From the NCBI RefSeq assembly GCF_000161935.1, contig NZ_GG698802.1:1-64000 (forward strand): a stretch of 64,000 nucleotides of DNA, in the 5' to 3' direction. Every line of letters begins with the position of its first letter. The first letter of the stretch is position 1. Both the position numbers and the translations under genes were made by a program. Positions 2,433 to 26,013 of this stretch are shown here, one piece after another. This DNA is from Limosilactobacillus coleohominis 101-4-CHN (GTDB lineage: Bacteria; Bacillota; Bacilli; Lactobacillales; Lactobacillaceae). The notes beneath the pieces are model-generated. The model was given only the letters and a program-made list of their open reading frames with translations, had not been told where the DNA came from and ran no database searches.

Positions 2433-3092
2433 TTGGAAAAACGCCAGCTGGATGAGAATACGATTCAAGTGATTATTAACCAAGATGATTTAGAAGAACG
2501 TGGAATTTCAATGCTTGATCTAATTGGAAACCAAAAGCAAATTGAAGATTTCTTTTATAGTATTCTCGAAGAGGTTGATACAGAACATCAATTTCAAAAA
2601 AATGATTCCGTTACTTTTCAGGCATTACCGATTAAAGATGGTTTGGAATTAATTATTTCGAAAAATGTTAATCGTGGATCTAATTCTGAAATGAATCAAG
2701 TTTCAAAATTAATTGCTGACCAATTGCGGGGACACGATCATCAAAGTTATTCGAGTAATCCTCAGTCTGATAATAATACCGTTCATAGTGATGCCGTTCT
2801 TTCAAATACATTCGTGGTTCGATTTGCAGATTTCGAAAACTTTATTGAGTTAGCTAATGTTTTAACCGATGATAATTTAAATGCCGATCTTTTCCATTAC
2901 CAGAAAAAGTTTTATTTGGTACTGCAAGACCTCAATAATGTCGGAATGTCAAAGGACACAATTCTTAATTACCGAGCTCTTGCCAGTGAATATGGTCAGA
3001 TTGTTGACATTACACCATCATTACTGCAAGAACATGGTAAATTGATCATGCGTCAGTCAGCATTAGAGACAGCAAGATATTATTTCAAGTAG
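2433..3092 (+). CDS. mecA: Adaptor protein MecA
   Basis: Adaptor that feeds substrates to the ClpC AAA+ unfoldase; in Firmicutes it controls competence regulators and other proteins. The 219-residue product has the family layout: an N-terminal substrate-binding part (EKRQLDENTIQVIINQDDL), an acidic linker, and the C-terminal ClpC-binding domain ending in SALETARYYFK. An ATG at 2409 is in frame, but TTG 2433 is preferred because AGGGGG lies 7 nt upstream and MecA proteins normally begin near this point. It has its own promoter and terminator. The competence gene coiA comes next, a common arrangement in this group. Confidence 0.93.
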   Translation: MEKRQLDENTIQVIINQDDLEERGISMLDLIGNQKQIEDFFYSILEEVDTEHQFQKNDSVTFQALPIKDGLELIISKNVNRGSNSEMNQVSKLIADQLRGHDHQSYSSNPQSDNNTVHSDAVLSNTFVVRFADFENFIELANVLTDDNLNADLFHYQKKFYLVLQDLNNVGMSKDTILNYRALASEYGQIVDITPSLLQEHGKLIMRQSALETARYYFK

Positions 3093-7823: not shown

Positions 7824-8678
7824 ATGAAAAAAATTGAAAAAGTTAGTTCTTGGTTATGCGACCATTTGGCACTATTTAACTGCCCAGTTTGTCATGAAAA
7901 ATTTATGCAGGTCAATAATCAACAATTGGTTTGTGTGAACGGTCATCGGATCAATATTAATAAACATGGTTACGTCTATTTTTTGCAAAAGGGTGTTAAG
8001 TCTGAATATGATCGCGAGATGCTTCTTGCAAGACGCCAACTCCTGTCTGCAGGCCTATTTAAGGGAATTATTACGGCAATAAATGAAGAATTAGGACCGA
8101 CTCCACAGAGGATTCTGGATGTTGGTAGCGGTGAAGGAACCCCACTATTCCAACTTCAACAGTTACGAAATCGGCATGATGAAACTTATGTTGGCTTTGA
8201 TATTTCACGTCCAGGGGTGCAATTAGCGACGCAATTAGATTCGGAATTATTTTTCTGCTTGGCAGACCTGCGTCAGCTTCCGTTTCAAAATAACTCATTT
8301 TCCACTATCATTGAACTGTTTTCACCGTCAGATTATCGTGAGTTTCACCGAGTTTAAAAAAACGATGGAAAGATAATCAAAGTGATTCCAACAGGAAATT
8401 ATCTCCATGAAATGCGTGCATTACTTTATCCAGCGGATGATAAACATCAAAAATATGATAATACTGCTGTAAAAAAACTATTCGCCGATCATTTTGGTGC
8501 AACCCACGTAAAGAATGTTCAATATCGGTTTACCATTCCAAAATCACTGCGGTCATCAATGATCGAGATGTCGCCACTTCACTGGGGCAAAAATGCTCGT
8601 CATTTAACGGAAGCTGAAATTAATCAATTAACGACTGTTACCGTTGATGTGGACCTATTAATTGGTAAACAGAATTAG
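7824..8678 (+). pseudogene. rlmA: 23S rRNA (guanine) methyltransferase RlmA, interrupted by in-frame TAA
   Basis: The RlmA(II)/TlrB type N1-methylates G748 in 23S rRNA of Gram-positives. The first part has the zinc finger (CPVCHEKF ... CVNGHRININKHGYV) and the SAM motif ILDVGSGEGTPLFQL. At 8355-8357 a TAA replaces what looks like a Leu codon in the conserved REFHRV-L-KNDGKIIKV context; TTA to TAA would do it. The same frame then continues for over 100 codons (KVIPTGNYLHEMRALL ... DVDLLIGKQN) to the normal end, so only one base appears to be wrong. GTG 8382 could restart translation, but no ribosome binding site is obvious. The N-terminal fragment alone lacks the rest of the methyltransferase fold. 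ATG 7824 follows an AAGAAAGG ribosome binding site. Confidence 0.88.
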
Positions 8679-8681
8679 TTG

Positions 8682-8709
8682 TTGTTCCCGACAAATTATA
8701 TGCTATAAT
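8682..8709 (+). promoter_or_regulatory. Promoter of the trmL leader
   Basis: TTGTTC, 16-bp spacer, TATAAT preceded by TGC (extended -10). Predicted transcription start is near 8716. Confidence 0.7.
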
Positions 8710-8725
8710 AACTATTAGAAATCGT

Positions 8726-8827
8726 TTAGCAAGCGACATCGATCGGGTGAGTTCGTTGGTACTTGCTAAGGTGTACTTCATTAAAGCAGCGTTTCGCCGT
8801 GCCCACACCGAGACCCTGCTTTTTTTA
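8726..8827 (+). ncRNA. Attenuator-like leader of trmL (candidate 23S-methyl RNA motif)
   Basis: Two hairpins between a promoter and trmL. P1: TTAGCAAG (8726-8733) pairs with CTTGCTAA (8762-8769). The 3' hairpin is an intrinsic terminator: AAAGCAG / CTGCTTT, GTTTCG / CGAGAC, GTG / CAC, then a T-run (8783-8827). GGTGT at 8770-8774 can instead pair with ACACC at 8805-8809, inside the terminator, which gives a plausible anti-terminator. The 23S-methyl RNA motif described in Lactobacillales has two hairpins, the second terminator-like, upstream of SpoU-type RNA methylase genes. Layout and neighbour fit; assignment to that family is from memory. Confidence 0.6.
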
Positions 8828-8848
8828 TTTGCAAAAAGAGGAAAAACT

Positions 8849-9358
8849 ATGACAAATCATATTGTATTATTTGAGCCACTATTCCCGGCCAACACTGGGA
8901 ATATAGCGCGGACATGTGCTGGGACAAATACAGTACTGCATTTAATCAAGCCGCTAGGTTTTTCAACGGATGATAAGCATATGCGTCGCGCTGGATTGGA
9001 TTATTGGGATAAAGTGAAGGTGGTTTATCACGATGATTTACCATCGTTTATTCAAACTGTACCAGATTTGAAGCATCTATATATTGTTTCCAAGTTTGCC
9101 ACCCGTGATTATACGGATGTTGATTATACAGAGTCTGGTGACCATTATTTCTTGTTTGGTAAGGAAACAACAGGGTTGCCGGAACCATTTATGCGGAAGT
9201 ATCCTGAATTAGCAATTCGGATTCCACAAAATGATCAAAATATTCGCGCATTAAACTTATCTAATAGTGCTGCAATCATAATTTATGAAGCATTACGGCA
9301 ACAAAGTTTTCCTAATTTGGCGCGTACTCATCGGTACCCATTTGATAAATTAAAATAA
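8849..9358 (+). CDS. trmL: tRNA (cytidine/uridine-34-2'-O)-methyltransferase TrmL (SPOUT family)
   Basis: Methylates the ribose of the wobble base in certain leucine tRNAs in species studied. The 169 residues are a minimal SPOUT methyltransferase: [17 protein letters not shown] at the N-terminus, then the knot motifs [10 protein letters not shown] and [20 protein letters not shown]. The upstream frame is open from 8747 but lies in the terminator region, so ATG 8849 (GAGG 6-8 nt upstream) is the start. Expression depends on readthrough of the 8783-8827 terminator, or on a promoter I cannot see. ftsK follows after 13 bp. Confidence 0.93.
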
Positions 9359-25782: not shown

Positions 25783-25795
25783 TAATTCTAAAATA

Positions 25796-26013
25796 TTGAC
25801 GAGACCACGAGGATACTAGGATGTCGCAGAGAGTCGATGTTTGGTGAAAATCGATGACTTATGAGTGTCCCCATCAGCTCGGAGTGCAGTTTTGAAAATT
25901 GTAGAAACTGCCGGGTCATTCCCGTTATGCAATGCCTAAGGAAGTAATAATTACTTTAAAATAGGGTGGTACCACGAACAGCTTCGTCCCTTGCGGATGG
26001 GGCTGTTTTTTTT
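25796..26013 (+). promoter_or_regulatory. T-box riboswitch of ileS (specifier ATC)
   Basis: The invariant T-box AGGGTGGTACCACG lies at 25963-25976, followed by the terminator AACAGC ... GCTGTT with a T-run (25977-26012). Stem I carries the AGAGAG ... GGTG distal elements. In the 3' side of the specifier region the codon ATC (Ile) stands at 25873-25875, followed by A. Uncharged tRNA-Ile should favour the antiterminator and switch on ileS. Confidence 0.95.

Follow-up and report, generated by a model that had tools for sequence, protein, structure and literature searches.

Positions 8717-8827 of the forward strand of a 64,000-nucleotide stretch of Limosilactobacillus coleohominis 101-4-CHN (contig NZ_GG698802.1; hereafter the window) belong, judged by sequence, to the 23S-methyl RNA family (RF01065), and we give about an even chance to the reading that this RNA acts as an attenuator-type leader of the tRNA methyltransferase gene trmL. 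The Rfam covariance model matches the plus strand at 8722-8827, scoring 59.2 bits where the gathering threshold is 50, spans model positions 1-102 of 102, i.e. its full length (E = 6.2e-7 in a search over the entire window), and belongs to a family of Rfam type Cis-reg. The first-pass annotation had proposed this membership and had described a hairpin, a 16-bp multi-part terminator, a GGTGT segment and a methyltransferase gene as the parts of an attenuator-like arrangement; the model search bears out the membership, all of these parts are present in the sequence, and the terminator does lie immediately 5' of trmL. The hairpin P1, the linker and the bulged terminator follow one another in this order, and the features of the locus are:

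7824-8678, plus strand: rlmA-like 23S rRNA guanine-N1 methyltransferase gene, upstream neighbour of the element
8682-8709, plus strand: promoter of the RNA, by inspection (TTGTTC at 8682-8687, a 16-nt spacer, TATAAT at 8704-8709)
8717-8723, plus strand: AGAAATC, the RNA 5' end region, present in relatives of several genera
8725-8770, plus strand: hairpin P1, 8725-8742 paired with 8753-8770, with internal mismatches and variable loop length
8771-8782, plus strand: linker, with a conserved ACUUCAYUAA that extends into the terminator
8783-8826, plus strand: bulged intrinsic terminator, AAAGCAG-GTTTCG-[CC]-GTG-CCCA-CAC-CGAGAC-CTGCTTT, then a T run
8797-8798, plus strand: 2-nt CN bulge (here CC) between G8796-C8809 and G8799-C8808
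8849-9358, plus strand: trmL, tRNA (position 34) 2'-O-methyltransferase gene, with TIGR00185 and PF00588 matches

RF01065 elements are described as lying upstream of a methyltransferase gene, and the likely source of the motif is a 2007 paper by Weinberg. Such a gene is confirmed here, its start lying 22 positions beyond the last base of the element. The RNA methyltransferase gene of the first-pass annotation is identified as trmL by the matches of its product to TIGR00185 (188.7 bits, just below the cut-off of 190.6) and PF00588 (92.2 bits); the nearest named TrmL loci belong to Limosilactobacillus, and Candidatus L. excrementigallinarum is the nearest of all, with 99% protein identity. The TrmL match speaks against a gene product that would act on 23S rRNA, as the family name implies; this implication concerns the name and has no place in the Rfam model itself. 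In the rlmA-like gene upstream, an in-frame stop at 8355-8357 splits the gene into two stretches of the same frame, and relatives have intact copies. A leader frame open into trmL (GTG at 8747) was considered and rejected, since relatives differ in the spacing between terminator apex and trmL start and the frame is not kept.

Transcription of the RNA probably starts at about 8716-8717. The claim that it has its own promoter is sustained by the relatives, and in the window by inspection. When the best sigma-70-type score within the 52 nt before the element was compared with that of control windows further upstream, scores of at least 9.5 were found directly before the element at 89 of 156 loci versus 36 of 1560 control windows, with medians of 9.5 and 7.5, respectively. 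In the examples inspected, families f1, f2, f3, f7 and f9 repeatedly show a TTGCAA/T box followed, after 17 nt, by a TATATT-like box. The -35 box of the window, TTGTTC, agrees with the consensus at only 3/6 positions, and a simple consensus scan listed neither this promoter nor the terminator.

The two-hairpin layout of RF01065, with covarying pairs, is found in both of its parts. P1 comprises 9 outer pairs followed by an inner stem with mismatches, and in the genus 7/15 of its pairs have changed on both sides while 100% of the cells stay paired. The terminator stem has 7+6+3 = 16 pairs (8783-8822) closed by the loop CCCA, with T7 at 8820-8826; across the order, 13/17 pairs show two-sided changes (alignment A1, 72 sequences), and G25, C26, G28, C37, C38 and G39 round the bulge are invariant in 72/72 sequences. 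A linker-like flank is common across families. The fold of the element's sequence by itself is only mildly unusual (z = -1.79; 11/200 shuffles as good). The genus values come from 32 distinct sequences (alignment A2) out of 44 examined, after removal of 8 duplicates and of 4 sequences that failed the extraction pattern; of these, L298 and L311 carry the terminator with an incomplete pattern, and L320 and L326 lack the apex. Within this set, 15/16 terminator pairs never vary, A59-A64 and A67-A69 of the linker are invariant, and mean pairwise identity is 97.9% for linker plus terminator (columns 60-109), a frozen state that is partly built in by the extraction pattern, against 71.9% for P1; for trmL, computed from 29 of these 32, mean identity is 75.4%, and 45.6% at third codon positions. 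AGAAATC, TTCGCC and CTGCTTTTT are invariant in the genus set because the pattern demanded them, so that the constancy of AGAAATC reflects how the sequences were chosen (L298 was missed by that pattern). The invariant letters round the bulge look like apex recognition by some factor. Since the letters of P1 are free while its pairs are kept, and linker and terminator are near-frozen, a recognised terminator is favoured over an alternative RNA fold.

Because trmL starts 22 positions past the element, with no space for another promoter, its transcription must, on this layout, cross the terminator. Most transcripts would then terminate at about 8826, giving a short RNA of ~110 nt, and a minority would read through and set a low or regulated level of TrmL. 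Readthrough, in turn, might be set by a factor that recognises the linker and the bulged apex, for example a termination protein or a tRNA-related protein. The leader reading draws on the RF01065 score, the promoter enrichment, the covariation of the terminator in the order and of P1 in the genus, and the presence of trmL or queG as the next gene in 142/156 loci. The northern-blot detection of an enterococcal sRNA, as given in excerpts of PMC7724050, fits termination at the end of the leader. Against it stand the lack of a conserved antiterminator in the genus, 14/156 loci with neither trmL nor queG next, some of them with a gene on the opposite strand, and 17 searched genomes that have trmL and no listed RF01065 match.

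The family is widespread in the order, with RF01065 matches in 275/395 genomes (250 over the family cut-off) and 51/80 genera, as well as in 48/56 close genomes; among 14 control genomes, only Lactococcus lactis has one. Genomic context was counted at 156 loci from 50 genera, a non-random sample in which many loci are the best-scoring matches per search. From 159 loci (158 plus the window), L112 (contig end, misread by the script), L136 (cut by the contig) and L137 (a second copy) were left out. Genera are labelled g1 (Limosilactobacillus), g27 (Pediococcus), g28 (Lactiplantibacillus), g30 (Ligilactobacillus), g32 (Levilactobacillus) and so on, and families likewise, f3 being by our guess Enterococcaceae and f8 Listeriaceae. 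The gene next 3' of the element is trmL at 122 loci, queG at 20 and another gene at 14, and an rlmA relative lies directly upstream in 122/156 loci. The exceptions fall in g28 (4/4), g23 (2/2), g17 (4/4), f5.g12 (2/5), f3.g11 (1/4) and f3.g3 (1/2). At L199 (g28), a gene on the opposite strand begins 117 nt downstream of the element and trmL lies 2.4 kb off; at L204 and L205 (g23), an opposite-strand gene stands between element and trmL; and at L200 (g17), the element is succeeded by three genes of its own strand, namely a Ddl-like gene (by eye), queG and trmL. The context was read as far as trmL in one of the four g28 loci (L199) and one of the four g17 loci (L200). In some genera, the RNA persists without its usual gene next to it.

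These exceptions bear on the main rival explanation, possible in our view if rather doubtful, that the element is an independent small RNA that acts in trans or binds a protein, and whose place before trmL is ancestral and not functional. In its favour, the enrichment in relatives suggests a promoter of its own, and the RNA is still found where opposite-strand genes separate it from trmL (L199, L204, L205) or where another gene comes next, as at the 14 loci. In enterococci, moreover, sRNA_111 of E. faecalis and sRNA_106 of E. faecium are a homologous RNA reported in PMC7724050 as validated by northern blot. However, trmL or queG is next in 142/156 loci, 32 of which have no rlmA upstream, and the apical loops show no conservation in the order-wide alignment. 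The detached g23 elements score 47.3 and 38.8 bits, below the RF01065 cut-off, which suggests decay. Likewise, a scan of the window's own genome with the 15-nt apex (≤2 mismatches) gave a single other site, where ~3 are expected by chance. This site (L419, 1501-1515, 2 mismatches) lies inside a cysteine-desulfurase-like gene (by eye), on the other strand and in an orientation able to pair; given that estimate of ~3 sites, it is no evidence for pairing in trans. An antisense or rRNA-mimic role of the apex was rejected on the same pattern scan, which gave the element itself and this site, i.e. chance level.

The converse case, trmL without the element, was found in a search of 20 genomes. The gene is present in 19, two of which (G272, G341) have the element; in the remaining 17, neither a listed RF01065 match nor an apex immediately before trmL was found, and the element is therefore dispensable for having trmL. 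One chance-like apex string occurs 1 kb upstream of trmL at L376. In Limosilactobacillus itself, the element precedes trmL in a genome of L. reuteri (L302). At L320, of Limosilactobacillus gastricus, only an altered hairpin with a similar terminator base stands before trmL, perhaps a decayed element, and in G018, a member of the genus without the element, trmL lies directly behind an apparent ftsK end (L369, by eye). Some element-less trmL loci have the end of an rlmA-like gene just upstream (by eye). Lineages with trmL and no element, some of them with such an rlmA-like end just before trmL, would suit a second rival, which we consider very improbable: that a strong promoter and a terminator merely insulate rlmA from trmL, with no regulation. 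Terminators of the same bulged shape, which we do not know to be switched, also end tRNA units. Nevertheless, the covariation and conserved mismatches of P1, the near-frozen linker and terminator and the promoter enrichment exceed what insulation needs.

The first-pass annotation had further proposed that GGTGT (8770-8774) can break the terminator by pairing with ACACC (8805-8809). This part is not borne out. The first G of GGTGT is already paired in P1, and among the 32 distinct genus sequences ACACC occurs in 32 and GGTGT in 2, its site being otherwise GGAGT (16), AGAGT (6), AGAGC (4) or one of four single forms. Taken as a structure, the pairing has 68.1% of its cells paired, and none of its pairs covaries, 4/5 departing solely via unpaired cells; forcing it raises the predicted fold of the RNA from -32.2 to -21.8 kcal/mol, a cost of about 10 kcal/mol. 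Of the two observations on which the annotation had staked its proposal, the Rfam hit is thus present and the covariation of GGTGT/ACACC absent. Within the genus, no other pairing between the P1 arm and the terminator is conserved. If the RNA is truncated ahead of the terminator's 3' arm, P1 stays intact in 28/32 sequences, and arm-terminator pairs form in 2/32, L291 and the sequence from the window. An RNA-only antiterminator conserved in the genus is, on the sequences compared, not there, and the analysis removes one proposed switch. Of the earlier interpretation as a whole, the family, the own promoter and the terminator before trmL stand, whereas the GGTGT/ACACC switch and the mimicry of a methylation target find no support.

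A different two-state switch, improbable in our estimate, would have the 3' arm of P1 pair with the linker and the first three terminator bases (P2) and so loosen the closure of the terminator. In f3 and f9 this arm does pair well with linker plus AAC (e.g. GUUAGUGAA/UUCACUAAC), with fragment fold z-scores reaching -6.2, and in f9 the actual partners give -8.00 kcal/mol versus a mean of -6.41 for within-family swaps (n = 10). Over all 71 sequences, the actual value of -5.51 kcal/mol is better than that of cross-family swaps (-4.83) but is no gain over within-family swaps (-5.47). In f3 there is likewise no gain over within-family swaps (-9.46 kcal/mol both), and in f5 and f7 swapped partners pair better than the actual ones. 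The window has no P2 (z = 0.0), arm-terminator pairs with a half-made terminator are confined to 2/32 genus sequences, and forcing P2 in one f3 sequence gives -30.0 against -35.6 kcal/mol, a cost of 5.6 kcal/mol. P2 is therefore a lead for families f3 and f9, and not for the window. A further candidate helix, P0, would join the 5' end to the linker. Its mean is -3.18 kcal/mol versus -2.50 for within-family and -2.57 for cross-family swaps; the difference is more distinct in f2 and f7, is not seen in f3 (-2.06 versus -2.33), and the predicted fold of the window's RNA gives only a 3-bp hint of the helix.

Autoregulation by TrmL through target mimicry, the earlier suggestion that the hairpin imitates the substrate so that excess enzyme closes its own gene, is scarcely credible. 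The adjacency of trmL to the element in 122/156 loci would agree with it. The target of TrmL is the 7-nt anticodon loop of tRNA-Leu. No conserved anticodon-like loop of 7 nt was found in the element: the 72 aligned terminator loops measure 3-6 nt and comprise 41 different sequences, and the loop region of P1 measures 2-11 nt, neither loop being conserved in sequence. Moreover, the element is kept where trmL is no longer its adjoining neighbour.

The apex of the element's terminator is also found elsewhere. New here is that a CN-bulged terminator apex is common to RF01065 and to the ends of tRNA-Lys(CUU) and tRNA-Gln units; one narrow literature search on the terminator apex found no paper. The window element (L418) fits this class of bulged-apex terminators, in which a G[CN]G...CC bulge is set 2-4 pairs beneath the loop. 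R1, a model built from the terminator module by itself, was searched against 56 genomes and, with more permissive settings, against 18. R1 or RF01065 found terminators behind tRNA-Lys(CUU) in g28 and g23, behind a tRNA operon of g10 (family f2) that ends in tRNA-Gln and, free of a bulge, behind tRNA-Gly(UCC) before queG-trmL in family f8; the weaker R1 matches printed are terminators without the apex. The tRNA-Gln terminator L137, an RF01065 match below the cut-off, is one of the 72 A1 sequences and hence in R1, so that the tRNA-Gln finding in that genome is partly circular. A further tRNA-Gln case with the apex was found in G080 (L422). In G112 (L420), the same apex is found at the end of a contig, where no tRNA is visible, and a single pattern match in G092 appears to be coding sequence and to lack a stem of this kind.

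For tRNA-Lys(CUU), 71 Lactobacillaceae genomes were searched and 30 loci read. The CN-bulged apex was seen by eye at 11/30 (in g21, g23, g24, g26, g27, g28, g36 and g90), a 2-nt bulge of other letters at 2/30 (g86) and no bulge at 17/30; the window genome's own tRNA-Lys(CUU) locus (L260) has no apex bulge. The two g21 genomes that show it (G087, G165) have no RF01065 match, so that a local copy of the element does not account for the apex there. When terminator-like hairpins from 420 sequences were screened, the apex was found in 12/38 behind tRNA-Lys(CUU), 0/11 behind other tRNAs and 117/1088 elsewhere, counts that miss the tRNA-Gln terminators L191 and L192, which bear the apex by eye and are absent from the motif matches of the script. 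The 117 comprise 82 at the RF01065 places of L001-L158, 34 more that are RF01065 elements by eye, and L196. At L196 (about 2606-2691, minus strand), a 3' remnant of tRNA-Lys and a bulged terminator lie near an integrase-like gene (by eye); the setting resembles the attachment site of a mobile element, and exchange of this kind could spread tRNA terminators. In the window, positions 8-1699 hold a dense cluster of tRNA genes, followed after 1699 by an ordinary-looking terminator without the bulged apex. In three genomes of family f8 (L188, L189 and L190), tRNA-Gly(UCC) and its similar but bulge-free terminator stand immediately ahead of queG-trmL, where other families carry the 23S-methyl RNA. 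In the fetched flanks of trmL loci from outside the order, a tRNA gene was found in 0/24, and descent of the element from a tRNA is therefore not claimed.

A tentative extension, which we think unlikely, is that the CN apex with its AYUAA-like flank marks factor-recognised terminators of Lactobacillales, one factor coupling tRNA supply and tRNA modification. With the same small probability, that class would span tRNA-Lys(CUU) units, the tRNA-Gln-ended operon and the leader of trmL or queG-trmL. If a factor does read the apex, tRNA supply and tRNA modification would be linked through termination.

The element may finally be set beside the known systems that it resembles. In the literature searched, no other experimental treatment of the 23S-methyl motif was found, and PMC7724050, in its excerpts, lists the motif only as an sRNA; a term search of the main text of PMC2864571 found nothing. 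The RNA is thus common in the order, yet reported experimentally only as an sRNA in the paper found. T-box leaders (RF00230) share with it the form of a leader RNA with a terminator. A T-box at this place was rejected, with no RF00230 match at 8600-8950 up to E = 5; a T-box leader does occur elsewhere in the window, at 25787-25994 (100.2 bits). Classic attenuators, as a general class, likewise have a terminator in a leader immediately before the gene, but theirs alternates with a mutually exclusive antiterminator, of which no conserved counterpart was found in this genus. To RF01065 itself the likeness is close: a full-length match above the gathering score, two hairpins with a terminator, and a methyltransferase gene 3' of them. 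However, the family name, which implies methylation of 23S rRNA, probably misleads here, the downstream neighbour being the tRNA methyltransferase gene trmL (in other genera, queG-trmL), while the relative of a 23S methyltransferase gene, rlmA, lies on the upstream side and is, in this genome, interrupted. The terminators of tRNA-Lys(CUU) and tRNA-Gln units resemble the element in their AYUAA-like 5' flank and in the 2-nt CN bulge between G-C pairs; they differ in having no P1 and in following a tRNA gene, and the letters of the apical stem differ between element and tRNA-unit terminators (GUG/CAC, GCG/CGC, GCU/AGC, GCC/GGC).
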